Part shown: positions 5,151-51,868 of the stretch, one piece after another
Layout of the letters: every line of letters begins with the position of its first letter
Numbering within the stretch: the first letter of the stretch is position 1
Source of the DNA: Chitinophagaceae bacterium
GTDB lineage: Bacteria > Bacteroidota > Bacteroidia > Chitinophagales > Chitinophagaceae
DNA: 64,000 nt
Assembly: GCA_947446645.1 (NCBI GenBank)
Contig: CANFHA010000004.1
Location: 62,001 to 126,000 of the forward strand
Reading direction: 5' to 3'
Translations under genes and position numbers: made by a program
Notes under the pieces: generated by a model
What the model saw: the letters and a program-made list of their open reading frames with translations, nothing else
What the model was told of the DNA's origin: nothing
Database searches by the model: none

Positions 5151-5340
5151 GCGCTATGAAAAATTATATCTTTTGTTAATGGCTCGTAATTAAAACTTTA
5201 CAAAATATAACATTGGTGGAACAAACGCAAATTTCCCTCCTGAAATGGGGCAAATAGCCTTTTTTGATGGAGAACCGCTTAAAAATACTAACCAAAAGCA
5301 ATTTTAAGAAGCCAGCCCTCAATACCAAATTTGAAATTCA

Positions 5341-21259: not shown

Positions 21260-22033
21260 ATGAAAGTAGTCATTTTTGCCGGCGGCAGGGGTACACGTAT
21301 CTCGGAAGAGTCTTCTCTGCGCCCAAAGCCTATGATAGAAATCGGTGGTAAACCTATCCTGTGGCATATTATGAAGATTTATGCTGCCTATGGCCATACA
21401 GAATTTATCATTTGCCTGGGCTATAAGAGTTGGGTAATAAAAGAATATTTCGCCAACTACTTCCTCCACAATGCGGACATAACAGTAGATCTGGCCAACA
21501 ATTCTGTGGAAGTTCATAAGACTTCCGCAGAGCCGTTTAAGATATCGCTCATAGACACTGGTCTGGATACTATGACTGCGGGACGTCTGAAACGTGTGCT
21601 ACCCTATGTAGGGAACGAACCCTTCCTCCTCACCTATGGAGACGGTGTGTGCGATGTAAACCTCGATGAAGTAGTGAAGTTCCACAAAGCCAGCGGTAAG
21701 ATTTGCACAATGACAGCTATACAGGCTACAAGCCGTTTCGGCGTCATCAAAATGGAAGAAAACGGCACAATCGAGAGCTTTGAAGAAAAGCCCGAAGACA
21801 GTGGTACCTGGATCAATGGTGGCTTCTTTGTGGTAGAACCGGAAATTGCTAAATACCTGCATGACGATGCAGATGATATTATGTGGGAGCGCCAGCCTAT
21901 GGACGATCTCGCAAAGGACCGCCAGATAGCCGCATACCGTTACAAAGGCTTTTGGAAATGCATGGATACCCTGCGTGATAAAGAAGAATTAGAACACCTC
22001 TGGCAAACTGACCCTATATGGAAAAAGTGGTAA
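21260..22033 (+). CDS. rfbF: Glucose-1-phosphate cytidylyltransferase
   Basis: A 257-aa nucleotidyltransferase that joins glucose 1-phosphate and CTP to CDP-glucose, the first step to CDP-deoxysugars. The N-terminal loop MKVVIFAGGRGTRISEE followed by RPKPM is the nucleotide-binding signature, and the length equals the usual 257 residues. GDGVCDVN holds the metal-binding aspartate. Its last 16 bases overlap rfbG, which takes its product. Confidence 0.95.
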   Translation: MKVVIFAGGRGTRISEESSLRPKPMIEIGGKPILWHIMKIYAAYGHTEFIICLGYKSWVIKEYFANYFLHNADITVDLANNSVEVHKTSAEPFKISLIDTGLDTMTAGRLKRVLPYVGNEPFLLTYGDGVCDVNLDEVVKFHKASGKICTMTAIQATSRFGVIKMEENGTIESFEEKPEDSGTWINGGFFVVEPEIAKYLHDDADDIMWERQPMDDLAKDRQIAAYRYKGFWKCMDTLRDKEELEHLWQTDPIWKKW

Positions 22034-23103
22034 GCGCAGAATACCTGCGTTCTGTATTTAATGGCAAACGCGTGTTCCTTACCGGGCATACCGGTTTTAA
22101 AGGCGCATGGATGCTGCAGATTCTGCACTCGCTGGGTGCAATTGTAAAAGGCTATTCACTAGCACCTGAAAAGAAAAACGACCTCTATAACCAGGTTGAA
22201 GGCGACAAGCTTTGCTACAGCTCTGTAATTGCCGATGTATGTGACAAGGCGAAGCTGCAAACAGAAATAGTAAGGTTTGAGCCTCATTTCATATTTCACC
22301 TTGCAGCCCAGCCATTAGTGCGCCGCGGCTACGATCTTCCATCATATACTTTTATGGTGAATGCCCAGGGTACGGCTCACGTGCTGGATGCTATGCGTTC
22401 GCTCGTACCCGGCTGCGTTGGAGTAATGATAACTACAGATAAGGTGTACGATAATCCTGAGCGTGGTCTTCCCTTTAATGAAGATGACAAACTAGGTGGT
22501 TATGATCCATATTCAGCAAGTAAGGCAGCAGCGGAAATCGTTATTGATTCATTCCGCAGGTCCTTCTTTAACCCCAAAGATTACCATCTTCACGAAAAAT
22601 CAATAGCATCTGCCCGCGCAGGCAATGTTATAGGTGGCGGCGATTATTCCGATGATCGTATTGTACCTGACATTGTACGGTCTATAGCCTTTGGCGAAAC
22701 CGTGGGTCTGCGCAATCCAAACTCGGTGCGACCCTGGCAGCACGTGTTAGAGCCCGTCGGCGCTTACCTGCTCCTGGCTGCAAAAATGAGTGAAGACCCG
22801 GTACGTTTCAGCACTGCCTATAATTTCGGTCCAAACCCTGAGGATATGCTCACGGTTGAAGACCTGACCAAAACATTTATAGAAAGCTACGGAGCAGGCA
22901 GCCACAGAAGCTTTACTGAAGAAGGAGCGCCGCATGAGGCAAAACTCCTGCTGCTGGATAGCAGCCGTGCCTTGGAGCACCTCGGCTGGAAGTCTCAAAT
23001 GGACGCACGCACTGCCATACAGTGGACAGCAGAATGGTATGCCGACAAGCATCACTCCGCCCATGAAAAGTGTTTACAACAGATAGTGGAATATTTTGGA
23101 TAA
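22018..23103 (+). CDS. rfbG: CDP-glucose 4,6-dehydratase
   Basis: A 361-aa short-chain (extended) dehydratase converting CDP-glucose to CDP-4-keto-6-deoxyglucose. The NAD loop is FLTGHTGFKGAWM, the catalytic pair YxxxK is in YDPYSASKAAAE, and TTDKVY supplies the active-site Thr/Asp region. It overlaps rfbF by 16 bases, consistent with translational coupling. The dehydrase that makes 3,6-dideoxy sugars (E1/E3) is not nearby. Confidence 0.94.
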   Translation: MEKVVSAEYLRSVFNGKRVFLTGHTGFKGAWMLQILHSLGAIVKGYSLAPEKKNDLYNQVEGDKLCYSSVIADVCDKAKLQTEIVRFEPHFIFHLAAQPLVRRGYDLPSYTFMVNAQGTAHVLDAMRSLVPGCVGVMITTDKVYDNPERGLPFNEDDKLGGYDPYSASKAAAEIVIDSFRRSFFNPKDYHLHEKSIASARAGNVIGGGDYSDDRIVPDIVRSIAFGETVGLRNPNSVRPWQHVLEPVGAYLLLAAKMSEDPVRFSTAYNFGPNPEDMLTVEDLTKTFIESYGAGSHRSFTEEGAPHEAKLLLLDSSRALEHLGWKSQMDARTAIQWTAEWYADKHHSAHEKCLQQIVEYFG

Positions 23104-23111
23104 ACCTAAAA

Positions 23112-23651
23112 ATGCCTAAGATCCAAGCAATACCGCTAAGCGGTGCATTTATTATTACGTTGCCCGCATCTCACGATAGCCGTGGCACATTCGTAAAGAC
23201 ATATTCCGAATCGCAGTTCCGCGAAGCCGGCATAGACTTCACACTTCGCGAAAGCTATTTCTCGTTCTCAAAGAAAGACGTGATACGGGGTATGCACTTC
23301 CAGTTACCACCGCACCAGCATAGTAAGATTGTTTTCTGCCCGGTAGGTTCTATAATGGATGTAATCGTAGACCTCAGAAAAGACTCCCCCACCTACCGTC
23401 AGTACTATGCACACGAGCTATCTGCAGAAAACCATAAGGCAGTTTTTATACCCGAAGGATTTGCACATGGCTTTAAATCGCTCACTGACGATTCACTCAC
23501 CTGTTACCTCGTATCATCAGAGTACAACAAAGCCCATGATACCGGCATTAGATATGATACTATAGGATATGAATGGAATGTTAATGAACCAATTTTATCT
23601 GCACGGGACCTGTCATTTGTGACTATGGACGAGTTTGAGAGCCCGTTTTAA
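23112..23651 (+). CDS. dTDP-4-dehydrorhamnose 3,5-epimerase-like sugar epimerase
   Basis: A 179-aa cupin-fold epimerase of the RmlC family starting 8 bases after rfbG. I chose the ATG at 23112 because the upstream alternative at 23070 lies inside rfbG. The catalytic histidine is in IRGMHFQLPP, and PEGFAHGFKSL is the second family motif. Next to rfbFG it probably acts on CDP-4-keto-6-deoxyglucose rather than the dTDP sugar (inference), giving an epimerised CDP-keto-sugar. Confidence 0.87.
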   Translation: MPKIQAIPLSGAFIITLPASHDSRGTFVKTYSESQFREAGIDFTLRESYFSFSKKDVIRGMHFQLPPHQHSKIVFCPVGSIMDVIVDLRKDSPTYRQYYAHELSAENHKAVFIPEGFAHGFKSLTDDSLTCYLVSSEYNKAHDTGIRYDTIGYEWNVNEPILSARDLSFVTMDEFESPF

Positions 23652-33624: not shown

Positions 33625-34851
33625 ATGAGCCAAATCAACCGAAACCGCAATTGCCCTGTCTGTATTTCAGCGTCAACAGATAAAATAATTACTGTAGATT
33701 TCGAATTATTTGATGGCCACCCCATGAATGGCGGCTATGATGTGGTGCAGTGCACAACTTGCGGCTTTGTCTATGCCAACACACCCGTTACTCAAAATGA
33801 GCTTGACCATTATTATACAGAACTTTCAAAATACGAAGACAAAACGTTGTCAACCGGCGGCGGATTTACTGAAAACGATAAAAAAAGGCTTGCAGACACC
33901 GCGAAATTTATCAGTCAGTACATTACCGATAAAAGTTCTCGGATCGTTGACCTGGGGTGTTCCAACGGCGGATTACTGAAGGAATTGATAAACCTTGGCT
34001 ACAACAATGTTGTAGGAATTGACCCTTCGTCAGCTTGTGTTACTATTACCCGGCAGGAAGTTGGCTGTGAATGCCACCAATATTCGCTGTACGATATACC
34101 GAATAGTATAGGGAAGTTTGATGTTATCCTTTCAACACATGTACTGGAGCACTTACTTGATGTGAGGAGCGCAATAGAAATATTTGACAATTTGCTAAAC
34201 CCGGACGGTTATGTATATATAGAATGTCCAAATGCTGCATGCTATAAAGAGGTGATACATGCACCACTGCAGGAGTTTAACGCAGAGCATATCAATCATT
34301 TTACTGAAACTGCATTCCAGAATTTAATGGGAGCATTTCAATTCGGAAAGATAACTACGGGCGATAAGATATTTAAGATCGCGTCTGACCAGGATTATCA
34401 TGCCGTCTATGGCATCTTTAAGAAAGATAACACCAACACATACATTCAGCAATATGATGGTACTATCCGAGCAGATATACAGGAGTACATTGATAAATCT
34501 AATATTATCCTTGACGAGATTAAACGCGATATAGCAGGCCTTCCGGAAAATCTGCCTGCTGCCTTGTATGGCATAGGCCAGTTTTCCTTTAAGCTCCTGA
34601 AAACTGACGTTTTTCAACACGGGCGAAAATTCAAATTGTTTGATAACAACAATATGAACGTGGGTAAAAAAATAAATGGCACCACGATATTAGCCGGAAA
34701 GGAACTGCTGGCGGAATATAAAAGGGAGAAGTTTTCTATAGTGATATCGTCCCTGATCCATGAAGCCGCCATCAGAAAAAACATAGAACTGCTCTTTAGG
34801 GAAAATGGTGAAGTACCGCCTGTAATTTTAGGTTTCTCTAGGCTATTATAG
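33625..34851 (+). CDS. Sugar C-methyltransferase-like SAM methyltransferase
   Basis: A 408-aa three-part protein. Residues ~8-55 hold a zinc-type cysteine cluster (CPVC and CTTCGFVYANTP). Residues ~90-200 are a class I SAM-binding domain (RIVDLGCSNGGLLKEL). Residues ~300-400 resemble the C-terminal domain of C-methyltransferases (ALYGIGQFSFKLL, then KLFDNNNMNVGKK). This domain order is that of deoxysugar C-methyltransferases such as TylC3 and NovU. It converges on the minus-strand glycan operon, so it may methylate a keto-sugar made there (inference). Confidence 0.78.
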   Translation: MSQINRNRNCPVCISASTDKIITVDFELFDGHPMNGGYDVVQCTTCGFVYANTPVTQNELDHYYTELSKYEDKTLSTGGGFTENDKKRLADTAKFISQYITDKSSRIVDLGCSNGGLLKELINLGYNNVVGIDPSSACVTITRQEVGCECHQYSLYDIPNSIGKFDVILSTHVLEHLLDVRSAIEIFDNLLNPDGYVYIECPNAACYKEVIHAPLQEFNAEHINHFTETAFQNLMGAFQFGKITTGDKIFKIASDQDYHAVYGIFKKDNTNTYIQQYDGTIRADIQEYIDKSNIILDEIKRDIAGLPENLPAALYGIGQFSFKLLKTDVFQHGRKFKLFDNNNMNVGKKINGTTILAGKELLAEYKREKFSIVISSLIHEAAIRKNIELLFRENGEVPPVILGFSRLL

Positions 34852-34864
34852 GCCGGAAAAAGAA

Positions 34865-35818
34865 TTACTTATTGAAATTCACCCTTTCTTTTTCAATGAC
34901 CAGGGGCCGTTTCCTTACTTGGGTATGTATGGCGCCAATGTACTCACCTATGATACCGATAAAGAATAGCTGAACCGACGAGAAAAAGAATACACCAATT
35001 ACCAGTGGCGCCAGGCCAACTTCAAACCTGTTCCAGAAAAGCAATTTATAGATCAAATATACTACGGCCACTAATAAGCTGACCATAGCCGAAAAGAAAC
35101 CAATAAAAGCTGAAAGTCTTAGCGGGAGCTTTGAATGATTGGTGAACCCCAGCATGGCTATGTCATATAGCGTGAAAAAATTATTCTTGGTCTTTCCCGC
35201 TGCCCGCTCTGGCTGTGTGTATATTATTTCAAATCGATCGAAACCCAATTCTGTGATAAGCCCCCTGAAATATGGGTATGGGTCGTCCAGTTCCCTGATT
35301 ATAGAAATAAATTGCTGATCATACAACCCGAAACCAGTGAAGTTTTTTACCGGCTGTTCGCCACTATCAGACATCTTATTCAGCAGATTGTAAAATGCGC
35401 CGCGGATGGCAAACATGATCGGGTTCTCCTTACTTTTCTTCTTTATTCCAATTACTATCTTAAAACCCTCTTCCCACTTTGCCAGGAAGGTTTCAACCAT
35501 TTCTGGCGGGTCCTGAAAATCAGCTACAAGCGTTATAACCGCATCCCCCTTGCACTGTACTATACCATAAAATGAAGACCGGATATGACCAAAATTTCTG
35601 GCATTTACAATGACCTTTACATTCTTGTTTGTCTCCGCAATATTTTTCAGCAGCGCCACCGTTTTATCAGTAGAACCGTTGTCAATAAAAACATGCTCAT
35701 AAGTATACTGAGGCAATTTCAAAAAAACATTTCCAACCGCTTTTATCAGCGGCTCTACATTATCTTCCTCATTGTAGCATGGAGTGATAATCGATATGTG
35801 CTTCTTTGTCCCGTCCAT
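34865..35818 (-). CDS. GT2 glycosyltransferase, polyprenyl-phosphate type
   Basis: A 317-aa family 2 transferase with the DPM1/GtrB layout: catalytic domain first (ITPCYNEEDNVEPL, DNGSTDKT, VADFQDPPE with the metal DxD-like site), then two transmembrane helices at ~235-258 and ~275-300. Such enzymes charge undecaprenyl phosphate with a sugar for use outside the membrane. The ATG at 35818 is 2 bases after the upstream stop; a TTG at 35827 is less likely. Last gene of the eight-gene operon. Confidence 0.88.
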   Translation of the reverse strand: MDGTKKHISIITPCYNEEDNVEPLIKAVGNVFLKLPQYTYEHVFIDNGSTDKTVALLKNIAETNKNVKVIVNARNFGHIRSSFYGIVQCKGDAVITLVADFQDPPEMVETFLAKWEEGFKIVIGIKKKSKENPIMFAIRGAFYNLLNKMSDSGEQPVKNFTGFGLYDQQFISIIRELDDPYPYFRGLITELGFDRFEIIYTQPERAAGKTKNNFFTLYDIAMLGFTNHSKLPLRLSAFIGFFSAMVSLLVAVVYLIYKLLFWNRFEVGLAPLVIGVFFFSSVQLFFIGIIGEYIGAIHTQVRKRPLVIEKERVNFNK

Positions 35819-35820
35819 GA

Positions 35821-36894
35821 TCAGCAATAAACTCTTTTGAAATTGTCGAGGGCATCAGCAGCCTCCTGCAATGTAAAATCGGTGATTTTAAAAAAATCAA
35901 ATTGTTCGTTCATCATAATAAGCGGCAAAGCATTACCAATGCGTTTCTTATCCTGTTTCATTGCGTCAATAACGAGACTATTGTCTATTTGTGCCAACTG
36001 TTTATAGTCTACCTTCAGCAGATCAAACAATACGGAATTTATCTTCTCGTATAGCGAAACAGATAAATGCCTCTTGGTTACCGCCACATTGTTGGCAAGT
36101 ATCATGCCTACAATGATGGCCTGTCCGTGGGGTATTTTATAGTGAGTAGCCGTTTCTAATGCATGGCCATATTCATGACCATAATTAAGCAGATTCCGCT
36201 TCCCCTGATCAAATTCATCTCCATCCATATACGTCCACTTGATATCAAGAGACTGCTGGGTTGCAGACAATATAGTAGCCACATCACGTCCATGAATAGC
36301 GGATAGCTGAGAAGAAAGCAAATCGAGCTGCTCCATTCCGCCCATAATATGCAGCTTCACCACTTCGCCCATTCCGCTGTAAAAATCCTCTTCTTTAAGC
36401 GTATTGGTAAATTCGGTACTAACAAATATATCGTGGGGAGGATAAAATGTGCCTAATATGTTTTTATATGACTTATAATTGAGCGAAGTCTTACTCCCCA
36501 TACAACTATCCGCTTGCGCCAACAGCGTAGTAGGAACATAGATCCAGTGCAGGCCCCGATAAAAGGTGCTAGCTACAAATCCGCTCACATCCTGCGTTAT
36601 ACCACCACCAATGGAAATGATCTTGGTCTTTTTTGTAGGTTTCAGCGCAATGATCTTATCATAAACCTGCTCAGCACCTGCAAGTGTTTTATTTTCTTCA
36701 GTTGCATCAAGTAACACAAGGCTCCCGCTGTTTTTGATCAGCGAAAACTGTGTCAGGTATAGCTCAAAAACGTGTTTATCAACAATGAAAACCGCTTCCG
36801 GGGTTTGCAATAAAAGAGCAAGGAAAGACAGATCCGGTTCAAAATGAAGGGAGTAATCATGAATGCTCGACTTTATGTTCTTGATCTGGCTCAT
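35821..36894 (-). CDS. Dehydroquinate-synthase-like sugar-phosphate cyclase
   Basis: A 357-aa member of the sugar-phosphate cyclase superfamily, whose members close phosphorylated keto-sugars to carbocycles (dehydroquinate, 2-deoxy-scyllo-inosose, valiolones). The NAD loop is SIGGGITQDVSGF, the central motif VPTTLLAQADSCMGSKTSLN, and the zinc ligands are Glu in GEVVKLH and His in NYGHEYGHALE and IPHGQAI. The TQD and GSKTSLN variants differ from usual AroB (GD, GGKTAVN), and the gene sits in a glycan operon, overlapping an SDR gene by 4 bases. I infer a dedicated, not shikimate, role; its product is unknown. Confidence 0.82.
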   Translation of the reverse strand: MSQIKNIKSSIHDYSLHFEPDLSFLALLLQTPEAVFIVDKHVFELYLTQFSLIKNSGSLVLLDATEENKTLAGAEQVYDKIIALKPTKKTKIISIGGGITQDVSGFVASTFYRGLHWIYVPTTLLAQADSCMGSKTSLNYKSYKNILGTFYPPHDIFVSTEFTNTLKEEDFYSGMGEVVKLHIMGGMEQLDLLSSQLSAIHGRDVATILSATQQSLDIKWTYMDGDEFDQGKRNLLNYGHEYGHALETATHYKIPHGQAIIVGMILANNVAVTKRHLSVSLYEKINSVLFDLLKVDYKQLAQIDNSLVIDAMKQDKKRIGNALPLIMMNEQFDFFKITDFTLQEAADALDNFKRVYC

Positions 36895-37556
36895 AAGATC
36901 GTAAATCCACCGTCAGCAAAAATGGTTTGCCCGGTGATAAAAGTATTTTTTTCAGAAGCAAGAAAGAATATGATCTCTGCTATTTCCATCGGTTCTGCCA
37001 GGCGGTTCAACGGCAAATTAGCTTTTATTGCTTCGATCTGTTCTGCAGTATTATTGATCTTTGTAAGCTCCGTATTTACAAATCCCGGAGCCACTGCATT
37101 TACCAGAACATTATTTTCCCCGTACTCAATGGCTGCAGTCCTGGTAAAAGCATTTATAGCGGCCTTTGACGACGCGTAAATAGCCCTTCCTTTTTTTGAT
37201 ACACTACTCCATATAGAGCTGATATTAACAATCCGGCCATAGCCAGCAGATTTCATACCGGGAGCCAGTAGATCAGTTAAGAGTACTGGCGCCCAGAAAT
37301 TTGTATCGACAAGCTTGCGGGCATCGCTAAAATTGATGTCGCCGATATTTGCAAGAGGATTGATACCCCCATTATTGATCAGAACATGCACAGGTTCTTG
37401 TAAGGCTGATACATAATGGCGTATACTCTCTTCCGAACTAAGGTCCATTTCACTCCGAGACGGAGCCAAAACCCGGTAGCCCATATCGTTGAATTTCTGG
37501 GCACAAGCCTTACCTATCCCCTTACTGGAACCTGTAATTAGCGCAGTTTTACTCAT
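36891..37556 (-). CDS. Short-chain dehydrogenase/reductase
   Basis: A 221-aa classical SDR with the NADP loop ITGSSKGIGKACA, NNGG structural motif, catalytic serine in VNISSIWSS and the YASSK active-site pair. It likely reduces a keto group or oxidises a hydroxyl in the operon's pathway. Start at the ATG 37556; a GTG at 37565 is also in frame. Its start region overlaps the aldolase gene and its stop overlaps the cyclase start (ATGA), indicating translational coupling. Confidence 0.88.
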   Translation of the reverse strand: MSKTALITGSSKGIGKACAQKFNDMGYRVLAPSRSEMDLSSEESIRHYVSALQEPVHVLINNGGINPLANIGDINFSDARKLVDTNFWAPVLLTDLLAPGMKSAGYGRIVNISSIWSSVSKKGRAIYASSKAAINAFTRTAAIEYGENNVLVNAVAPGFVNTELTKINNTAEQIEAIKANLPLNRLAEPMEIAEIIFFLASEKNTFITGQTIFADGGFTIL

Positions 37557-38373
37557 ATTTTCCACCCGCCTGTGATATTAGCTTATCGTAGCGCTGCTGC
37601 AGCATATCAATACGGTTTTCATCTTCCTTGTATATCATGCCATAAAAGTCGCGTTTGTTCTTAAGCCACATAAGCTCAAAACCTACTGCCTTCAGAATGC
37701 CTTTATCTCCACCGTTCCTCAGCGTAGCGTTCTTCGCGTCAAACAATACTTTCCTGGTCTCAAACTTATCCAGGTTACCCTGAGTCAGGTTATCAAAGAA
37801 AGGTAACGACTCAGAGGAAACGCCCCCGCCAATAACGCACTCCATGTCCTTATTGAATTTCTTTGCCTTTACAAGCACTTCTTCACATATGTTACGGATA
37901 GCTTCAGAATTAATGTCACTGCGCGTAAGACCCATAGAGCCGGTCATATCTACCCTGCCTACTACCACACCTTTTAGCTCTGCAATATTGGGCAGCGCCA
38001 GCATGTCATCGAAGTTCTTTACGGTAGAGATCGTTTCCACATTGATCAGGAAATCTACTTCCTTCCTTTCTTCCTGCGGAAATGCAAGATTCGCACAGGC
38101 AAGGAATTTCTTCAACGCATAAGGCGTTTCTATCATCGGTCCTACTATCCGGGTAACACCGATAGACCGGGAATCATACATGTCTTTCAGGGCTTCACAG
38201 CCGCCAATTTTTATAGTGAGGTCAAGTCCGGCCTTTGTGATAACTTCTTTAAGGCGAAGTGCCTCTTCCAAACGAGTACCTTCCGCTTCAAATTCAGCTT
38301 TTATGCCAATTGCGAAGTGATTCTCCTTCAGATCCTTCAACTGGTCGACCATTTTTCTTTCTAATAAATTCAC
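37549..38373 (-). CDS. HpcH/HpaI-type aldolase
   Basis: A 274-aa TIM-barrel protein of the HpcH/HpaI aldolase/citrate lyase superfamily. Visible elements are IGIKAEFEAEGTRLEEA at the start, KIGGCEALKDM, a metal-site glutamate in IGVTRIVGPMIETPYAL and the strand VVVGRVDMTGSMGL. Relatives join or split pyruvate-derived enolates and aldehydes; some lack the usual arginine, so the reaction here is not fixed. A GTG start (38373) gives the full N-terminus; an ATG lies at 38352. Confidence 0.78.
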   Translation of the reverse strand: MNLLERKMVDQLKDLKENHFAIGIKAEFEAEGTRLEEALRLKEVITKAGLDLTIKIGGCEALKDMYDSRSIGVTRIVGPMIETPYALKKFLACANLAFPQEERKEVDFLINVETISTVKNFDDMLALPNIAELKGVVVGRVDMTGSMGLTRSDINSEAIRNICEEVLVKAKKFNKDMECVIGGGVSSESLPFFDNLTQGNLDKFETRKVLFDAKNATLRNGGDKGILKAVGFELMWLKNKRDFYGMIYKEDENRIDMLQQRYDKLISQAGGKYE

Positions 38374-38419
38374 TGCCTGGTAGTTTTAAGTGTTATCGAA
38401 AATGCTAAAATAATATAAA

Positions 38420-40219
38420 TCAGCCATTATACTCCTTAATAAATAAATTAGTCCTGAATTCCTCTCTGTCCATAAAAGGTGCGAGATCTTCAAGCGGCGC
38501 AGATATCATACGACCATCTTCAAGCCTCTTAGAAGATACTTTCGGTAAAAATTTATAATCTTCCGTTAGCATCACTTCACAGATCACCGGCCCGTCGGTT
38601 GCAAGAAATTCCTCGATTTCCCTTTTGAGGTCATCCTGTGAAGTTATCCTGCAAGTAGAAAATCCATATGCCTGGCCTAGCTTAATAATATCCGGAAAAC
38701 TAACACCTGAATTTGGGTCTGACCCAACACGGTGGCCTCCGAAGAATCCATCCTGCGTCTGTTTTATAGAAATATAACCGTTATTATTAAGATAAATAAT
38801 TTTTATGGGCATGTTATGATGTATCACCGTCTGCAGCTCCTGTATATTCATTTGTATGCTGCCATCCCCTGCTATACAAACAACATCTTTCATATTATTT
38901 GCAACACAGGCACCAATAGAAGCAGGCAGATCAAAGCCCATAGAGGCGCAACCACTGTTCCAGAACATACGGATCCTGTTTTTTACGGGCATCGCCTGCC
39001 ATGGCGCCACACAAGCGGTACCATCTCCAGTTACACATACAGTCCCGTCTTTCATGCATTGACCAAGCACCTCCATAAATACGTATGGATGCACGCCCTT
39101 ATCCAGTGCATAATACTCAGGCAACACCGTAGGATATTTCTGTTTTCTGACCTTGTTCCATTCTAGCCAATCGGCATGAAGATGGGCTGCAGAGTTCCCT
39201 AAACTGTCGCTCAGCAAGCGAATAAAATCTACAGCATCTGCACAAACAGGAAGGTCGGGCCTTACTGTAGGTTTCAGTAGCTCAGCCTCGTCTATATCAA
39301 CGATAACTTTATAAGCTTCCCTGGCAAAAAACTCCCAGTTGTAACTTACCTGCCTTATGTTATTGCGGGTGCCTATCGTTATAAGCAGATCTGCATTCTG
39401 CACACAGAAATTACCTGCCCTGTTGCCGAGCGTGCCGAAACGGCCTATATAGTTGTTGTTATCCTCCCCTATCACATCCATCCCGTTGAATGTTGTTACA
39501 ACTGGAATGTTACAGGCACCTAACAACGACTCAAATTCCGCTATGGCACCGGAAATGCGAATACCGTGCCCGGCGAGTATCACCGGTCGCTGAGCTTGTC
39601 TTATTTTCTCAGCTACGCTATCAACTTTTATTTTTAATTCATCGTTTGTTTGAACATTCGGAATATCGAAGCCCTTGAGCTGGCCCTCGTCAACAAGTGC
39701 ACCTTGAATATTCATAGGCACGTCAAGCCAAACCGGCCCCTTGCGGCCTGTTGTTGCCAGCCATATTGCTTTTTCCAGGTAGTACCGTATGTCATTGGCA
39801 TCCGTGATCATGTGCGCAAACTTGGTAATCGGCGACACCACAGCAACAATATCCACCTCCTGATCGCCTAACTGACGCAAACCTTTCACTTCAGGGCAAG
39901 CATGAATTGTTGTCTCAAATTTCACTTGCCCGGAGAGATATAGCACCGGTACTGAATCCGTCCACTGCCCAAGCACACCGTTCAGCGCATTCAGTCCGCC
40001 AGGGCCTGTAGTCACGTTCACTACCGCAAGCCTGTTGGCTGTTCTCGCATAACCTTCTGCGGCAATAGCGGAAGCTTGTTCATGGTGATTGTTAATATAA
40101 ATGAGGTCCCTGCCCAACGAATCGTTGAGATGCATAGCCCCTCCGCCAGTAACCATGAACACATGCTCTACGCCGTATTCTTTTAGTTTTTTCGAGATGT
40201 AATCTGTTACTTTTATCAT
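38420..40219 (-). CDS. Thiamine-diphosphate enzyme (acetolactate synthase-like)
   Basis: A 599-aa ThDP enzyme with the three-domain acetolactate synthase fold. The catalytic glutamate is in NHHEQASAIAAEGYAR near residue 48, and the Mg-ThDP motif GDGSIQMN...YLNNNGY is around 455-485. No small regulatory subunit gene or ilvC/ilvD is nearby, so amino-acid synthesis is unlikely. In sugar pathways such enzymes add a two-carbon acetyl unit from pyruvate (YerE-type) or decarboxylate a keto acid. Start at ATG 40219; an in-frame GTG lies 9 bases upstream. Fourth gene of the operon. Confidence 0.85.
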   Translation of the reverse strand: MIKVTDYISKKLKEYGVEHVFMVTGGGAMHLNDSLGRDLIYINNHHEQASAIAAEGYARTANRLAVVNVTTGPGGLNALNGVLGQWTDSVPVLYLSGQVKFETTIHACPEVKGLRQLGDQEVDIVAVVSPITKFAHMITDANDIRYYLEKAIWLATTGRKGPVWLDVPMNIQGALVDEGQLKGFDIPNVQTNDELKIKVDSVAEKIRQAQRPVILAGHGIRISGAIAEFESLLGACNIPVVTTFNGMDVIGEDNNNYIGRFGTLGNRAGNFCVQNADLLITIGTRNNIRQVSYNWEFFAREAYKVIVDIDEAELLKPTVRPDLPVCADAVDFIRLLSDSLGNSAAHLHADWLEWNKVRKQKYPTVLPEYYALDKGVHPYVFMEVLGQCMKDGTVCVTGDGTACVAPWQAMPVKNRIRMFWNSGCASMGFDLPASIGACVANNMKDVVCIAGDGSIQMNIQELQTVIHHNMPIKIIYLNNNGYISIKQTQDGFFGGHRVGSDPNSGVSFPDIIKLGQAYGFSTCRITSQDDLKREIEEFLATDGPVICEVMLTEDYKFLPKVSSKRLEDGRMISAPLEDLAPFMDREEFRTNLFIKEYNG

Positions 40220-40251
40220 TAACGACACAAAAATAGTCCTTTATTTGTTTA

Positions 40252-40890
40252 CTAATTTCCGGTTACCAAAGTAGCTAAATTATCAAACCGGTCGATCATG
40301 TAATGAGGTTTTTTTGTGGCAAGCAAATTTTCACTTTCGTAGCCATATTTAACAGCAACAGTTATAAGATTCTCATCGTGCCCTGCCTGTATATCATTCA
40401 CTGTGTCCCCTACCATATATCCCTCAGAAAACCCACCCATTCTCTTCAGTTCTGCTACCATATCACGTTTGGTCAAAGCGACCCCAGGGGTCATTTCAAA
40501 ACCGATAACATGCAAAAAGAAATGCCGGATTTTTTTTGCTTCGAGTATCCGTATAGTTGGTGCGTATCTTTTATTAGTAGCAATATATAATGAATGCCCT
40601 TGCTTATGTAATGTATTTATGGTTTCATATACTCCATCATACAAGCTCGTTTCTTTATAATCAGAACTATCATAGATAGACATAAACATTTTCTTTGCGA
40701 GCACAATGCGCTCGCGATCTTCCCCATAAACAGTGGATAAAAGGTCGTTAATATTCATCCCATAGTTCAAATCTTCAATAGCCGGATTTTTTCCTGGAGA
40801 AATGCTTTTAAAAACACTTTTATAGGTCTGGAATATCTCGTTTTTAGAATCAATAAGTGTTCCGTCAAGATCAAAGATAATATGTGACAT
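40252..40890 (-). CDS. HAD-family phosphatase
   Basis: A 212-aa HAD hydrolase of the phosphoglycolate phosphatase type. The nucleophile is in FDLDGTLIDSKNE (residues 7-19), motif II threonine in YIATNKRYAP, and motif III/IV in YMVGDTVNDIQAGHD. It is a good candidate to remove a phosphate from an intermediate in this operon. It starts 10 bases after the epimerase gene. Confidence 0.87.
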   Translation of the reverse strand: MSHIIFDLDGTLIDSKNEIFQTYKSVFKSISPGKNPAIEDLNYGMNINDLLSTVYGEDRERIVLAKKMFMSIYDSSDYKETSLYDGVYETINTLHKQGHSLYIATNKRYAPTIRILEAKKIRHFFLHVIGFEMTPGVALTKRDMVAELKRMGGFSEGYMVGDTVNDIQAGHDENLITVAVKYGYESENLLATKKPHYMIDRFDNLATLVTGN

Positions 40891-40900
40891 TTGCAGGGTG

Positions 40901-41785
40901 TTATTTGTCAGTCAGTAGAAGGTTTTTGTCCAGCCGATTAATATTCAATAAATACCACGTATATAGTTTCTCTATAGCAGCTGCAATAGGCGTAAAGCGT
41001 AAGGATTTAATTGTAGAATGCAACAACGTATTATCACCACTGTATTCTGCGGCTAAACCATCTTCCTTTACCTCTATAGAAATTGGTTTACCTGACACGC
41101 TTTTAACAATATTAGCAAGGTCCAGTAACTCGATAGAGTTGTCCGGGGTAATATTAAACGATCGGTCAGCCGGACTGTTTTCAATAAAATGTTCCAATAT
41201 CGGCATCAGATCATCTACGTATAAGTAGTCAAACTTCCGGTTTTGCCGCAAGGTTATGGGCAGATCAAAAATGGCTTTACAAATGGCGTTAGAAATGAAG
41301 CGGATCGCATAGTCCTCATACTTACCAAAAATTCCGAATATCCTGAAATCATATACACCTTCCTGGGAAGGTAGATACTTTCCGAAAATGTATTTATTAT
41401 ACCCATGCTCATCCGCAGGAATAAATGTACCGAAGTAAGATTCCTTCATTTTGGGCTGGTAATGGCGCATATCATAAATGGCACCGCTGCCCATATTTAA
41501 AAATTTCTCCCACCGGTCATTATACTTCAGGAGATTAAAAATCATACGGGAGTTGGTAAGCAGCAGGCTTGCCGTATCCGCGGCATTTCTATGCCCGGGT
41601 TTCGCAGCGGAATGTATGATTACATCAAATGACTGCTTACTAAAGTAGTTGCTCACACTGGTATCGTCACTGCAATCCAGTTCTGTACGCGGTGGCACAT
41701 GTAACTCGTACAGGTCAGTTAAATATGATTCGGCAATATTTTTACCAAGGAAACCGGTACCACCCGTCACAAGAATTTTCTTCAT
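40901..41785 (-). CDS. NAD-dependent sugar epimerase/dehydratase
   Basis: A 294-aa extended SDR (NAD loop VTGGTGFLGKN, active-site YNKYIFGK). KFDYLYVDDLMPILEHFI is the typical C-terminal substrate region. Nucleotide sugar epimerases, reductases and synthases share this fold, so the exact activity is open. It follows the membrane protein gene by 1 base. Confidence 0.85.
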   Translation of the reverse strand: MKKILVTGGTGFLGKNIAESYLTDLYELHVPPRTELDCSDDTSVSNYFSKQSFDVIIHSAAKPGHRNAADTASLLLTNSRMIFNLLKYNDRWEKFLNMGSGAIYDMRHYQPKMKESYFGTFIPADEHGYNKYIFGKYLPSQEGVYDFRIFGIFGKYEDYAIRFISNAICKAIFDLPITLRQNRKFDYLYVDDLMPILEHFIENSPADRSFNITPDNSIELLDLANIVKSVSGKPISIEVKEDGLAAEYSGDNTLLHSTIKSLRFTPIAAAIEKLYTWYLLNINRLDKNLLLTDK

Positions 41786-41786
41786 G

Positions 41787-44504
41787 TTATTTACTTATAG
41801 ATTGCCTTATTGATTCCCATGTACTTGCTATTTGTCCTTTGTCCGTAGCTTTATTGGTAATAGACACTTCCGCAATCGGACCTATATAGTAACGCATAAA
41901 CCCTAAATTACCTGTAAACAGCTTTTCCGGTGAGTTCTTAAACGGTTTGGGCAGCGGGAATGTACTTGCTAGCGCACCGTTTACATAAACCTCCATGCGG
42001 TCGGGGTATACATTCATCACACAGTAACTCCAGTCATCACCCGCTATAGCAGCACCGGTTCCTTTTCCGTTTATTCCGAAAAAGTAGTTAGGTGAATTAA
42101 TAATATTCGCAATAATAAAACCGCTCGAATCATTCATATTCCCTACCAGGGTAGCATACTGGTATATTTGCCGTTGCGGTTTAAACAACACCTCAACCGA
42201 AAATTCAGAAGCCAAATTCACCCCATTCATACCTGCGCCGTCATTTATCCTGGCATTAATACCCGCCGTGTCGGCCGTATATTTTTTATATATAACTTGT
42301 CCTGCACGATCAAAAAAAGCTTGCGTTGGCAATTTGTCCTTTCTTTTCACGAGCAATGCCATCGTCTTATTAGTGTCCTTCACCTGGTAAGTAGCCGCTA
42401 CTGCAGCAAACGGGCGATTCAGGAAATAATAGTTGCAAAAAGCAGGCTCTATAAAAATATTAAAAGACGAATCACTTATTTCTTTTGTCAGCCGGTCAAG
42501 ATCTGAATTCAGGAACATATCCCCTAGCCCGGGATTAAAAGCCGCCTTCCTGGTATTTCCGTCGAAGTATAAGCATTGATACTGGCGCGCGGTAAACACC
42601 AATATCTTTTCCCGGTCTTTTGAGTTTTTCTTCAAAAACTCGCTATTGCTTTCTATCCTTATCTGCTCCTCCTGTTGTTTAGCTTTGTCGTCGTCCTGGT
42701 TCACTAGTTCGCTTATCCTGTCCGTTCCTGCCACAACAGAGAAAAACGAGAAGGAAATAACAAACAGAAAAGCAACAAAGAACGCGTTTAGCGCCAGGTC
42801 CTTTTTCACTTTGATCACGCTCCACAATTGATCGCCCAAAATGGTAAGCAACATCAGGGTCATACCCGAGCTCTGTGCCAGCTGCCAGTTGTGACTACGT
42901 CCCTGGAAATAGGTGAAAAAACCAACACTGAGCGCTGAAAGTAAAAACACCATAGAAGCTTTGGGGTTAATATCCTTTTTATACCACTTACTTATAGAAT
43001 ATGTCATACCAAGCACAATAACTAATGCTACGATATTCCACGGATGAACCAGCGACATGGGAAGCAGGTTAGCGCCTAGCTTACCAAAAACGGTGATTGT
43101 AGAGAAAAGAGATGACAGGTCGGGAGATGAGCCATAAGCTACCGCAATTATCAGCTTATATGCATAAAAAGCAACGAATAGCATGCCTATACCAGCGAGC
43201 CAGTGTATGGCAATTTTCTTTACCGCTATTTTACCATCAGTGGTGTAAAAATCAGTAAAAGTATTAACCGCCAGCCAGCAGAGATAACTGATTATTCCGA
43301 TCTCAGGATTCCAAAGAACAAAAAACGCCTGCAAAACTGTTGTAAACCAGTAAATAATCTGCGAGCGCTTATTGAAATACACAGTGGCCAAAAAAATAAG
43401 AGTGCTTGGGATAATATAGCGGACAGGATAAAAGGCAAAATTGCAATCGAAATTCTGCCCGAACTTAAAATTGAGAAAAGGAAAAAAGATTACAGATAAA
43501 ACACCTAAAAAAAGAATAATATTATTATCCACGAACTTCCGGAGCACATAGAAATTGCCAATAAAAGACAGTCCCAGCAATATGCTCATTATCAACGTGA
43601 ACTTCAAAACACTTAGCCCGATGACACTGAATATAACATTTAGAAAATGAGGATATAGGCCGTATGTGCTAGAAAAATTATTTACAAGCATTGGCAGGCC
43701 AGAGTACACCTGGGTCATGGAGTAGTAAACTGCATTAAAATTGTATTTCGTCTCAAAAGCATACGGAAAATAAAATACACTCATTCCTACTGCGGCAATC
43801 ACCACTGCCCCGAAAACACCGTATCCTACTAACGAAGATGATATTTTGAATGTCTTATTGCCCTCCCAGTTATATTTCTTAACACCCAAAAAGAATAAAG
43901 CGCCTAGCGCCGGCACCAAAATGAACGTATAGAGTAGCAGATATTTGCCAATGAAAAAACCATCAAAGTAAAAGTCGAAGTTTGTTTTCCCCACAAAGTC
44001 CCTGCTGTTTTGCGGTATCTCGCCACCGTCTTTTACAAACGGATTCTGGGCCGTAAAATCAAACCAGATCATACCCATCAATATCACCACTGGGATCAGG
44101 GAAATAACGGTAGCGGTAGGTTTTTTTGCAAGATCCTTTATAAATGCCAGCTTTGAAAAAACACTATAAAAACCCAAAAGTCCCAAGGTAATGACCACAA
44201 CACCCACCCTGAACAACATGGCCTCCATCGGTTCTGGTCGTGCTGCTTCAGGTTCTATCAATAATCTTTTAGCCTCGGCTAGCGCAGCACTTGTGTCCGG
44301 GTGGTACACCTTTTGAATCACAAAAGCTATTACCCAATAAACAAATAAAGAGCAGCAGATCGAAAATACCCAGCGCAGTAGCTCCTCTCTTAATAAGAAA
44401 TCCCTTTCATCAGCAACCTGGGTTTTAGCGCCAGGGCTAACGTTCTCAGAAACAGGTAAAATATTATTAGGTACAGGTTTTTTCTTGTTTTTTCCCGAAC
44501 TCAT
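41787..44504 (-). CDS. Polytopic membrane protein with C-terminal LamG-like domain
   Basis: A 905-aa protein, first gene of the eight-gene operon. Residues ~1-45 are cytoplasmic and lysine/proline-rich. About a dozen hydrophobic helices follow (~50 to ~620) in a layout like a GT-C glycosyltransferase or flippase-like protein, with no motif I can assign. Residues ~740-900 look like a concanavalin-fold (LamG-like) domain, with FSVEVLFKPQRQIYQYATLV, MEVYVNGALAST and GNLGFMRYYIGPIAEVSI. The lectin-like module would face the periplasm. Possibly a glycan transferase with a built-in binding domain (inference). Confidence 0.65.
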   Translation of the reverse strand: MSSGKNKKKPVPNNILPVSENVSPGAKTQVADERDFLLREELLRWVFSICCSLFVYWVIAFVIQKVYHPDTSAALAEAKRLLIEPEAARPEPMEAMLFRVGVVVITLGLLGFYSVFSKLAFIKDLAKKPTATVISLIPVVILMGMIWFDFTAQNPFVKDGGEIPQNSRDFVGKTNFDFYFDGFFIGKYLLLYTFILVPALGALFFLGVKKYNWEGNKTFKISSSLVGYGVFGAVVIAAVGMSVFYFPYAFETKYNFNAVYYSMTQVYSGLPMLVNNFSSTYGLYPHFLNVIFSVIGLSVLKFTLIMSILLGLSFIGNFYVLRKFVDNNIILFLGVLSVIFFPFLNFKFGQNFDCNFAFYPVRYIIPSTLIFLATVYFNKRSQIIYWFTTVLQAFFVLWNPEIGIISYLCWLAVNTFTDFYTTDGKIAVKKIAIHWLAGIGMLFVAFYAYKLIIAVAYGSSPDLSSLFSTITVFGKLGANLLPMSLVHPWNIVALVIVLGMTYSISKWYKKDINPKASMVFLLSALSVGFFTYFQGRSHNWQLAQSSGMTLMLLTILGDQLWSVIKVKKDLALNAFFVAFLFVISFSFFSVVAGTDRISELVNQDDDKAKQQEEQIRIESNSEFLKKNSKDREKILVFTARQYQCLYFDGNTRKAAFNPGLGDMFLNSDLDRLTKEISDSSFNIFIEPAFCNYYFLNRPFAAVAATYQVKDTNKTMALLVKRKDKLPTQAFFDRAGQVIYKKYTADTAGINARINDGAGMNGVNLASEFSVEVLFKPQRQIYQYATLVGNMNDSSGFIIANIINSPNYFFGINGKGTGAAIAGDDWSYCVMNVYPDRMEVYVNGALASTFPLPKPFKNSPEKLFTGNLGFMRYYIGPIAEVSITNKATDKGQIASTWESIRQSISK

Positions 44505-49372: not shown

Positions 49373-51868
49373 TTAGTCTTGCGGACATATTTTTTTTCTA
49401 TTCATACCAATTAATACTATCAATACATAGATAATACAGCCAGCGATCACCATAAACAAAGCAGCGCCCAGGTATCGTTGGTGATAGCTCATGAGTATTT
49501 CATTATGCCCTTTCTTCAGCATTATACCGGTCATCCCGCCAAAAAGCTTGATCGTAGAAGCCTGCTCTCCATTTACCTTTAGGCTCCAACCACCATCTAC
49601 AGGCAATGACAAATACATCATCTTGTCAGTGGCCAGCTCAATAGTTCCGGATATTTCCCGCTCATCAAACTTATTAACCCTGAGAGAATCTTTACTCAAT
49701 TCATCAATGCGTTGCTTATAAATGTCTATCGAAAAACCTCCCGGCGCAATAGTGTCTGCTAACTGAAATGGTGGTAATCCGTTCACTTTATTTACATCCT
49801 TTTCGTTTACCACACAGGTGGATAGACTAACGAAGTCCTTCTGGGTATTCGACAATGCACTGAATGACTTCTCTGTCATGTATTTACTATATGTATAACC
49901 AATCGGCAACATTAGCTTATTGCGAAATAGCGTTATATTACCAAATGTACCTAACGTATCACAGATGGAATACCATAAAGGGTTAATATTACCCCTTGCC
50001 AGTACATACTTTACCCGGTTCTCCGATTCCATTATTGGGCGGGTATTTAGCCCATTTGCCCACCTGGTTGTCAACTCATTTGAAAGATCAACTACACCAA
50101 ACAAGCCAAGGTAATTGATGTAATTGCCTTGGTTAAACGAGTTATAAGAGCTGGTGCCGTGATAGCCTTGCACCATACCATCATTGAGCGAGCCATGCAT
50201 GGCAGGCGATGACCAGTAATTCTTGTCTACACGATAAAACGAGTTGGAATGATCATTAGCCTTTATGTAGTTTAAGGCTTCTACCGAGTAATCATTATAT
50301 CCCACTTTCTGAGTTAATTCAGCCGCCGTCACTGCATCCCGCTCATTTGCCGAAATATTCGAAAAATAAAGTAGTTCACAGCAAACTACGGCAAGGAAAA
50401 TGTACTTCAGGTATACCGGGCTATTTTGTCTACCCATCATACAAAGTAACCCACCGTACAGAAGCAGCAGCATACAAACAAACGTAAGTATCGAAGTGCT
50501 GACAATTGACCTGTCAGGAAAGAATGGATAATTGAGTAGAATAAACAGAACCACTACACTTACAATAAGGGTAATAAGATTGATCTTCCTTTGCCTTACA
50601 ATCTGATCCAACGCCAGCATCGCGAAGAACATAAACATCAACGCAACAAGGAAAGAATAAGCCCTATAATAATCACCCGTAAATAGCCAGAATGCATAAC
50701 GGAAATAAGGAAAAATGATTGGCAATAGCCAGATAGACGCGAATACAACAAAAGCAACTCTAACATTTTTTTGCAGCGTGGGAAATACCTGCGGCATCAA
50801 CAGCAGGCAAGGAATGCCGCAATAAAACATCGGCGCCTCAAGTAAATTCTGCACACCCTTAAAGTCATTACCACTGCCAAGAATGTCGCTGGAAAAGAAT
50901 CGCATCACACTGGTACCTAGATTCATATTATCTGCAACACTGAACATTGGGGTGGATGACAATATATGCGCATAAGAACTGCTTCCGCTGCCACGGGGGC
51001 TTTCCATTATTATCAAGATATTCTCTATAAGAAAAGGTGCGCTTAGTAGCAGTCCTAGCGCTCCAAAGCCAATCATTTGCAGAAAAACACCGCCTATACC
51101 TTTTATATCCGCCCGCTCCGTCTGTATACATCTGAGCACTGCATACAAGGCAAGGAATAAACCGTAAATGTATAAATTGACCGGGGTAGAAATAGCAATA
51201 ACAAAAATGGCAATAGGGAATAAGAGCCAGTTCTTTTTCGTAAACATTTGCTCAAATGCAAGCAGCAACAGCGCGGTGCTAAACGCCTCATAAGAGAAAA
51301 AATTCCACGCACCACCCACTATCATAAATCCGCAAAAAGAGAATAACAGGCTACCCGTAATAGAAGTAAAATTGGACAACTTAAGTGTTCGCAAATAGAA
51401 AAAGAAAGTAACACCTCCCAGAATGATCTTAAATACTTCCTTATATATCATCCCCGTCATGATGTGGTCCTTTCCGGATAAGAAAAGGAAAATATCAAAA
51501 GGGTCACGGAACAGGAGCGCAAAAATATTCTGCCCTATACCCCAGTCATATGACCAGGTGGGAAAATGCCCTTTAGATAGCTGATCAGCTGTATAGTACC
51601 GGTAAGGATAAAGCCCATTCAGCGTATCACTGCCGATATCCTTGAACATATAGACCTTGTCGAAAAGCAGATAATCCTTAAAAACAATAAAAGCAATAAC
51701 CAAAATAAGTCCAAGAGATACCAACCACGCCTTGCTTCCAAGGTTTTCGAAGAAGTCTACCAATTGAGTATTGTTTATCGATGCACTTGACGTAGTCGCC
51801 TGTGCTACAGGCGCTTTTTCCTTTTGTGTACTATCTGCAACAGCCGGTTTGTTCTGCTTTTTTGCCAT
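49373..51868 (-). CDS. YfhO-family membrane protein
   Basis: An 831-aa polytopic protein of the YfhO family, GT-C-like membrane proteins that in Firmicutes take part in glycosylation of cell-wall polymers. There is a cytoplasmic Lys/Ala-rich start, a first transmembrane helix at ~53-70, about twelve more to ~510, an extracytoplasmic region (including GYHGTSSYNSFNQGNYINYL) and a final helix at ~800-820. The end of the exported region (DGGWSLKVNGEQAS) is typical of the family. A role in transferring sugars to a surface glycan is likely but unproven. Confidence 0.85.
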   Translation of the reverse strand: MAKKQNKPAVADSTQKEKAPVAQATTSSASINNTQLVDFFENLGSKAWLVSLGLILVIAFIVFKDYLLFDKVYMFKDIGSDTLNGLYPYRYYTADQLSKGHFPTWSYDWGIGQNIFALLFRDPFDIFLFLSGKDHIMTGMIYKEVFKIILGGVTFFFYLRTLKLSNFTSITGSLLFSFCGFMIVGGAWNFFSYEAFSTALLLLAFEQMFTKKNWLLFPIAIFVIAISTPVNLYIYGLFLALYAVLRCIQTERADIKGIGGVFLQMIGFGALGLLLSAPFLIENILIIMESPRGSGSSSYAHILSSTPMFSVADNMNLGTSVMRFFSSDILGSGNDFKGVQNLLEAPMFYCGIPCLLLMPQVFPTLQKNVRVAFVVFASIWLLPIIFPYFRYAFWLFTGDYYRAYSFLVALMFMFFAMLALDQIVRQRKINLITLIVSVVVLFILLNYPFFPDRSIVSTSILTFVCMLLLLYGGLLCMMGRQNSPVYLKYIFLAVVCCELLYFSNISANERDAVTAAELTQKVGYNDYSVEALNYIKANDHSNSFYRVDKNYWSSPAMHGSLNDGMVQGYHGTSSYNSFNQGNYINYLGLFGVVDLSNELTTRWANGLNTRPIMESENRVKYVLARGNINPLWYSICDTLGTFGNITLFRNKLMLPIGYTYSKYMTEKSFSALSNTQKDFVSLSTCVVNEKDVNKVNGLPPFQLADTIAPGGFSIDIYKQRIDELSKDSLRVNKFDEREISGTIELATDKMMYLSLPVDGGWSLKVNGEQASTIKLFGGMTGIMLKKGHNEILMSYHQRYLGAALFMVIAGCIIYVLIVLIGMNRKKICPQD

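Follow-up and report, generated by a model that had tools for sequence, protein, structure and literature searches.

Organization of the gene cluster

We analyzed a 64,000-nucleotide stretch of DNA from Chitinophagaceae bacterium GCA_947446645.1 (contig CANFHA010000004.1, positions 62,001-126,000 of the forward strand), referred to below as the window. It contains a putative operon of eight co-oriented open reading frames (ORFs) on the minus strand (34865..44504). Our best reading is that this cluster is a variation on branched-sugar synthesis by YerE-type enzymes, to which an aldolase and an exchangeable end module have been added. From GT2 to MEM, the genes are separated by -7, -4, -17, 46, 23, 10 and 1 bases. 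Three junctions overlap and the largest gap is 46 bases, as an earlier note on this DNA had described. A Pfam scan of ten window proteins also backed all the gene families named in that note (GT2, cyclase, short-chain dehydrogenase (SDR), aldolase, thiamine diphosphate (ThDP) enzyme, HAD, epimerase and LamG-like). The eight genes are:

34865..35827, minus strand: GT2, membrane-anchored family 2 glycosyltransferase of the undecaprenyl-phosphate-sugar type (PgfS/ArnC-like); PF00535
35821..36894, minus strand: CYC, TIGR04425-type sugar phosphate cyclase with a dehydroquinate-synthase (DHQS) fold; Pfam DHQ_synthase and DHQS_C
36891..37565, minus strand: SDR, short-chain dehydrogenase, the constant partner of CYC; PF13561
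37549..38373, minus strand: ALD, divergent HpcH/HpaI-type aldolase; PF03328
38420..40228, minus strand: THDP, YerE/JanthE-like ThDP carboligase; three Pfam domains
40252..40890, minus strand: HAD1, HAD phosphatase (PGP-like), optional; PF13419 (HAD_2)
40901..41785, minus strand: EPI, extended SDR (NAD-dependent epimerase/reductase); PF01370
41787..44504, minus strand: MEM, large membrane protein with a C-terminal LamG-like domain; PF13385 (Laminin_G_3), residues 763-893

A ThDP enzyme and an aldolase form the core

An aldolase profile search of genome contigs identified 37 related loci. Searches of the window's own phylum (Bacteroidota) and order, within which alone the genome sampling was even, added eight more, and with the window the set comprises 46 loci. 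Related loci carry L-numbers as labels. Most are metagenome-assembled, and their phylum names are taken from the record titles, which include Bacteroidetes, Spirochaetes, Elusimicrobia, Margulisiibacteriota, Saganbacteria, Brocadiia, CSSED10-310, Vampirovibrionales, Gastranaerophilales and one Nitrospira-titled contig. The gene-detection thresholds for the 46-locus table were set by us. L011, L012 and L021 are truncated by contig ends, and on the two sides of the L026 aldolase just 3.4 and 4.1 kb of sequence are available.

The aldolase is rare and patchy in the window's phylum and order. At E 1e-40, 8 of the 395 phylum genomes searched have it, and seven of these belong to a single other family; at 1e-60, it is found in 2 of 396 genomes of the order. 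In 45 of the 46 loci, no more than 3.4 kb separates the aldolase from a ThDP enzyme, of which L039 shows just a fragment. The exception is L021, where the contig ends 202 bases past the aldolase. At a distance of up to 10 kb from the aldolase, EPI is present in 38 of the 46 loci, SDR in 23, the cyclase in 22 and GT2 in 21, and SDR accompanies the cyclase in all 22 cyclase loci. The proximity of the ThDP enzyme and the aldolase, together with this constant pairing of SDR and CYC, indicates that the gene set occurs beyond chance. The search for the set in other genomes, which the earlier note had proposed, thus revealed a recurring core of ThDP enzyme and aldolase. L026, an otherwise typical locus, contains a 465-residue ORF unlike any gene of the set (4194-5591) between these two genes.

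The closest solved structure to THDP is PDB 8rph (378.8 bits, residues 5-590), followed by acetolactate synthase II (258.0 bits). 8rph has been identified as JanthE, a YerE-like enzyme (PMC12188165). By sequence, THDP is nearer to this characterized YerE-like enzyme than to acetolactate synthase. The match to JanthE extends across the length of THDP. Hydroxylated 2-oxo acids are products of pyruvate aldolases. In the available portion of a review of YerE-like enzymes, YerE is described as adding pyruvate-derived activated acetaldehyde to CDP-3,6-dideoxy-4-keto-glucose, and the preferred substrates of ErwE as hydroxylated 2-oxo acids, 4-hydroxy-2-oxobutanoate among them; the preference of MMAR_2332 is similar (PMC12247030). 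That the acids preferred by ErwE are pyruvate aldolase products suggests why ALD sits beside THDP. The use of a long keto acid by a ThDP enzyme already has precedent in ErwE and MMAR_2332 (PMC12247030).

ALD is a divergent aldolase. It scores 29.0 bits against the HpcH/HpaI family (PF03328), barely above the cut-off of 25. It has the family score, the fold and two acidic metal ligands of this family: hhalign, covering residues 29-176, places E113 and D142 opposite the Glu and Asp in a pair of HpaI-like proteins. Structural matches to the HpaI/HpcH class II pyruvate aldolases and SbnG show 10-15% identity, and ALD differs from these proteins in having its own motifs, KxEFExEGTR and IKIGGCEALKDM. 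Pyruvate kinases match ALD structurally almost as well as the HpaI/HpcH aldolases do.

The cyclase is distinct from housekeeping AroB

CYC fits TIGR04425 best among the NCBI groups, with 397.5 bits against a curated cut-off of 400. The NCBI title of this group is AroB-related putative sugar phosphate phospholyase. Nine relatives of CYC score 370-414 bits against TIGR04425 (three above 400) and 247-265 bits against aroB. Among 395 genomes from the phylum, 11 have a TIGR04425 cyclase. The earlier note had raised the possibility that CYC is the only, housekeeping AroB of its genome. This is ruled out by the aroB score of CYC (TIGR01357, 253.6 bits), which is under the cut-off of 305, and by a separate DHQ-synthase gene on another contig of the same genome (C13), which is over it (329.3 bits).

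CYC shares the fold family and the catalytic residues of AroB and the sugar phosphate cyclase superfamily. Residues D102, D129, K135, N145, E177, K180, K219, R233, N237, H240, H244, H256 and K316/K317 are kept, which we take to be the DHQS-fold catalytic and metal/NAD positions. Residues were compared in two tables, one of 21 distinct rows and the other of 22 distinct rows from cyclases in a ThDP context. CYC differs from AroB in its TIGR04425 grouping, in the Gln of the GGG motif, in the Ser-Cys of DSCxGxKTS, and in an Asp for Glu four residues ahead of the conserved Arg. Group features are Gln101, Ser130-Cys131, Gly176 and Asp229. The motifs GGGITQD and GSKTSLN, singled out previously as unlike those of usual AroB, are both found in CYC. 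The Gln of GGGITQD is invariant in the 26 TIGR04425-type rows compared and is replaced by Thr in the genome's own AroB.

The cyclase pair is an exchangeable end module

The loci fall into groups according to the genes next to the core. SDR and CYC are present in 22 loci and a phosphatase of the HAD2A or HADBT type in 10, and no locus has both (one-sided Fisher p 4.8e-4, kinship ignored). The HAD2A/HADBT genes are at most 24 bases from the aldolase in their 10 loci, and CYC starts within 0.7 kb of it in 21 of 22 cyclase loci. A HAD of any kind is found in 2 of 22 cyclase loci and in 14 of the 24 others (p 4.9e-4). All four HAD2A proteins scanned by Pfam, of seven, contain clear HAD domains. The three HADBT phosphatases (L004, L007 and L036; 3 of the 10) are weakly assigned by the motifs DFDG, T, K and DD, and the one HADBT protein scanned has no Pfam match at 0.001 and just 22 bits to NCBIfam HAD. 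When HADBT is left out, none of 7 loci has both modules (p 0.006).

A quick tree of ALD and ThDP sequences indicated that the modules were swapped repeatedly. It contains 43 rows, 41 of them labeled (L021, L025 and L039 have too little ThDP sequence; L011 and L012 are unlabeled). To account for the cyclase label, the tree requires at least 12 changes, and 6 or more of these fall on starred branches. A three-way label (cyclase, slot HAD or other) is clustered on the tree, with 0 of 200 shuffles as low, whereas the cyclase label alone is not (94 of 500). The modules differ between the sister rows L006 and L007 (support 91), L066 and L068 (93), and L016 and L022 (100), where L016 has HAD1. L008 and L036 have common gene families on both flanks and different modules. 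The SDR-CYC pair is therefore an exchangeable module. The earlier note had treated the cyclase as part of the set; the gene is indeed present and conserved with SDR, but it does not belong to the pathway core. Both modules would, by family, act on phosphorylated substrates, which makes sense of the swap.

Several observations weigh against a strict exchange. The SDR-CYC pair of L019 is located 6.9 kb from the aldolase, and seven loci that are intact beside the aldolase have neither module (L013, L026, L028, L029, L030, L032 and L037). The window and L033 carry HAD1 in addition to SDR and CYC. HAD1 is found within 10 kb in 8 of 46 loci, in 2 with a cyclase, in 2 with another HAD and in 4 alone, and by itself shows no significant exclusion of CYC (p 0.15). 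Among independent supported pairs in the tree, any HAD is opposed to the cyclase in 4.7 of 6 on average (median p 0.06) and HAD2A/HADBT in 3.2 of 6 (median p 0.25); so few pairs can hardly give a median p below 0.25 for HAD2A/HADBT.

A CDP-sugar is the most likely acceptor

Genes for a CDP-sugar are located in the first half of the window:

21260..22033, plus strand: RfbF, glucose-1-phosphate cytidylyltransferase; TIGR02623, 367.3 bits (cut-off 300.25)
22018..23103, plus strand: RfbG, CDP-glucose 4,6-dehydratase; TIGR02622, 417.2 bits (cut-off 278.45)
23070..23651, plus strand: RmlC-like 3,5-epimerase, overlapping RfbG; TIGR01221, 147.6 bits (cut-off 155.75)

The THDP reaction most likely has a CDP-4-keto-(3,6-di)deoxyhexose as its acceptor. 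RfbF and RfbG of the window would make this sugar together with an RfbH-like protein encoded elsewhere in the genome. The earlier note had suggested a sugar precursor leading to a branched or carbocyclic unit. That unit still stands, but the acceptor was overlooked, although RfbF and RfbG are in the same window. THDP thus has the gene context of a CDP-4-keto-deoxyhexose, with RfbF and RfbG over and the RfbH-like protein under the cut-off.

This context is common among the related loci. Of the 46 loci, 26 have RfbG and 24 have RfbF no more than 10 kb from the aldolase. RfbH with His replacing the pyridoxal phosphate (PLP) lysine is found in 23, a count of loci with the His signature; the count of 25 in the 46-locus table also took in the DegT gene of the window (46198) and that of L034. 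Of the 20 loci without a nearby RfbG, 16 had their genomes searched whole (L016, L064 and L065 were left out and the window was counted apart). RfbG is over the cut-off elsewhere in 13 of these 16 genomes. An RfbH or RfbH-like match is also found in 13 of the 16, in 5 over the cut-off and in 8 at 295-302 bits. In the background set, 376 genomes of the window's order, 76 have RfbG and 23 have an RfbH or RfbH-like match. Compared with this background, the RfbG count gives p 6e-7, a value to be read with care because the 16 genomes span several phyla.

In the window's genome, no RfbH is over the cut-off (423 bits). An RfbH-like protein with the His signature and 296.7 bits is encoded on the same contig outside the window (C4:202909-204096, equivalent to L071:6904-8157). 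Its gene does not adjoin RfbF and RfbG. All 11 genomes of the order with an RfbH-like match of that strength, the window's included, also have RfbG (Fisher p 1.2e-8), as do all 12 genomes with RfbH over the cut-off; the genome lists were compared by eye, and the His was checked only in the RfbH-like protein of the window's genome. By this association, we take the RfbH-like protein as a probable working 3-dehydrase. The DegT gene at 46198 was also considered as the missing RfbH and rejected. It retains the PLP lysine (SFYPGK), and the gene outside the window is therefore the better candidate.

Because the RmlC-like epimerase gene overlaps RfbG, the sugar may be an epimer or may retain its 3-hydroxyl. 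RmlC-like genes are also found within 10 kb of the aldolase in L026, L031 and L034. In the Saganbacteria-titled contig L018 (4535-7291), RfbH has a long insertion right after SFYPPHHM at the active-site His. It ends in HN before TMGEGG and looks like an intein in a CDP-4-dehydro-6-deoxyglucose 3-dehydrase.

Proposed pathway and alternatives

We propose that the genes build an activated branched deoxy sugar, probably destined for the bacterial surface, and close its branch to form a carbocycle. All reactions are inferred from sequence, and we give the proposal about an even chance. RfbF, RfbG and the RfbH-like enzyme would generate CDP-4-keto-3,6-dideoxyglucose, or its 6-deoxy form. ALD would join pyruvate and a phosphorylated aldehyde into a phosphorylated 2-keto-3-deoxy acid, with seven carbons and similar to 3-deoxy-D-arabino-heptulosonate 7-phosphate (DAHP). 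THDP would decarboxylate this acid and couple the remainder to the CDP-sugar at C4, in the manner of YerE and ErwE. CYC would then oxidize the branch, eliminate the phosphate and close the ring by an aldol reaction at the ketone of the branch. The resulting quinic-acid-like ring would bear the sugar where quinic acid has its carboxylate. SDR would reduce the ring ketone, and GT2 would attach the finished sugar to undecaprenyl phosphate. Where sister loci have a HAD phosphatase, this enzyme would act in place of CYC and SDR and leave an open polyhydroxy branch.

The phosphatase and a DHQS-type cyclase both remove phosphate, and the simplest common intermediate would therefore be the ThDP product with a phosphate-ended keto branch. 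Ring size and branch length would follow from DHQS chemistry. A six-membered ring would require a six-carbon branch, and therefore a seven-carbon keto acid like DAHP, so that the partner of the aldolase would be a tetrose 4-phosphate. The analysis supports the earlier suggestion that carbon-chain extension by the aldolase leads to a branched or carbocyclic unit. The specific product would be a C12 sugar with a carbon-carbon bond between C4 of a 3,6-dideoxyhexose and a quinic-acid-like cyclohexane. The pathway would be widespread and modular, with ring and open-branch forms swapped in several phyla through cyclase/dehydrogenase or phosphatase. We consider this reading plausible, at somewhat less than an even chance.

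Other features fit this pathway less well. Two genes of the window are not accommodated: EPI has no fixed role in the scheme, and HAD1 beside the cyclase is unexplained by it. ALD apparently has Lys55 and Phe28 at the positions of what we take to be the catalytic His and the pyruvate-binding Arg of HpaI (assigned by eye; the hhalign alignment is loose in its first part). Without this Arg and His, the donor could differ from pyruvate. L076 (702-10562) contains RfbF-RfbG-RfbH, an EPI-like gene, a ThDP enzyme, an FkbM methyltransferase and SDR with CYC, and its genome is missing from the set with ALD at E 1e-40. Another aldolase replacing ALD had been considered for L076 and was rejected, since the gene at that place is the FkbM methyltransferase. 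The keto acid in L076 may come from the shikimate pathway. CYC keeps the AroB-type Lys (K219) and Arg (R233), which presumably bind the carboxylate of DAHP. Their presence fits a substrate still bearing a carboxylate, which the coupled branch would have lost. In addition, in four of the 11 phylum genomes with a TIGR04425 cyclase (L073, L074, L075 and L077), the neighborhood fetched contains no ThDP enzyme or ALD.

These last two observations favor a different order of reactions, in which CYC acts before or apart from the ThDP enzyme. ALD would make a DAHP-like acid, CYC and SDR would convert it to a quinate-like acid, and THDP would add acetyl from pyruvate, as in yersiniose. The Lys and Arg are invariant in the ThDP-context cyclases, and two of the four loci, L074 and L077, have HpaI/GarL-like aldolases. 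However, a quinate-like acid is not an alpha-keto acid, which would leave the linkage of ALD and THDP in 45 of 46 loci without a reason. No acyl-activating gene common to the loci was noticed on reading them, without a systematic search, and the swap of HAD for SDR and CYC would alter the whole product class. We regard this order as rather unlikely.

The four loci represent a second context of TIGR04425 cyclases (L073:9467-16799, L074:9404-14556, L075:9471-13222 and L077:2851-10565). L073 also has genes for a Gfo/Idh oxidoreductase, a 2-hydroxyacid dehydrogenase and a KdsB/PseF-like cytidylyltransferase, and L075 has RfbF- and RfbG-like genes. In all four, SDR and CYC adjoin a GmhA-like isomerase (91-106 bits, cut-off 209). 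This is consistent with CYC using a ketose 7-phosphate, for example sedoheptulose 7-phosphate, in an EEVS/EVS-like reaction to a cyclitol that the other genes decorate or link. However, the cyclases of the four loci form a separate clade (100/100) and have His at position 180, in contrast to the Lys shared by the 22 ThDP-context cyclases and the AroB of the genome. No GmhA-like isomerase is present among the ten window proteins scanned. A ketose 7-phosphate substrate for the window's CYC seems improbable.

The position of HAD1 beside CYC in the window could instead indicate a plain branched-sugar locus, in which HAD1 and EPI finish an open branch and SDR-CYC is a non-functional remnant. L004, the row most identical to the window (85%) in the ALD and ThDP tree, lacks CYC and contains two types of HAD. 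However, L003, the nearest row by tree path, has SDR and CYC. Both overlapping genes have intact reading frames, and CYC retains its catalytic positions. We consider it very improbable that the pair is a remnant. The pathway proposed above, in which CYC closes the branch of the THDP product, is the reading that we carry forward.

Other genes of the window

GT2 scores 181.9 bits against PgfS and 119.7 bits against the ArnC-like PRK10714, both far under the cut-offs. This resemblance to undecaprenyl-phosphate-type enzymes suggests that a lipid-linked sugar is likely, in agreement with the earlier proposal that GT2 loads the sugar unit on a lipid carrier. MEM is possibly an enzyme that uses the lipid-linked sugar. 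It shares 25% identity over 94% with a protein in L004 and 13-14% with membrane proteins preceding EPI in other loci, and identities across the membrane-protein alignment range from 13 to 27%. A kinship of MEM to these pre-EPI proteins was considered and dropped, since the profile had been seeded with MEM itself. Another large membrane protein in the window (49373-51868) scores 1171 bits with a profile that includes the pre-EPI membrane proteins of L004, L006, L007, L009 and L013.

The putative operon is flanked by a methyltransferase gene:

33625..34851, plus strand: MT, S-adenosylmethionine (SAM) methyltransferase flanking the putative operon; PF13489

Relatives of MT are found in or beside four loci, with identities of 67% (L004), 55% (L006), 40% (L065) and 31% (L068). 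The G+C content of positions 32001-64000 is 0.40-0.44, compared to 0.44-0.48 in the first half of the window, and this may be an acquired region.

Discussion

The cluster shares features with the YerE-type pathways to yersiniose, erwiniose and caryophyllose, as these are described in the portion of the review available: genes for a CDP-4-keto-deoxy sugar and a YerE-like ThDP enzyme are found in all, and the donor is presumably longer than pyruvate in erwiniose and caryophyllose as well as here (PMC12247030). It differs from them in its dedicated, conserved HpcH/HpaI-type aldolase and in the exchangeable module of SDR and cyclase or phosphatase. The word 'cyclase' is absent from the available text of the review (PMC12247030). 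An AroB-like cyclase whose product is unknown, EboD, is encoded in the Ebo operon, which is also conserved and contains a phosphate hydrolase (PMC5133447). Its partners are different, a UbiA-type prenyltransferase and a xylose-isomerase-like TIM barrel, and the available part of that report names no ThDP enzyme, aldolase or CDP-sugar genes (PMC5133447).

Like the predicted product, bradyrhizose and caryose are bacterial sugars with a carbon ring (PMC9671505). Caryose is a nonose, whereas a C12 product is predicted here. Bradyrhizose, whose gene cluster has 11 genes, is a C10 sugar. In our searches of an open-access library, we found no pathway that combines a YerE-like enzyme, an aldolase and a cyclase. 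A 2024 survey by Krug of more than 200 YerE-like clusters, cited in PMC12247030, may list some of the loci, and the absence of such a pathway from print is not established.

If the proposed pathway is correct, it would provide a genetic route to bacterial sugars that bear a carbocycle. The substrates of sugar phosphate cyclases would then include a side chain carried by a nucleotide sugar in addition to free sugar phosphates. The aldolase would be a source of the hydroxylated keto acids preferred by long-branch YerE-like enzymes, and the carboligase and aldolase set would be usable for the synthesis of tertiary alcohols. Whether a ring or an open branch is made would be predictable from gene content in dozens of mostly uncultured lineages.

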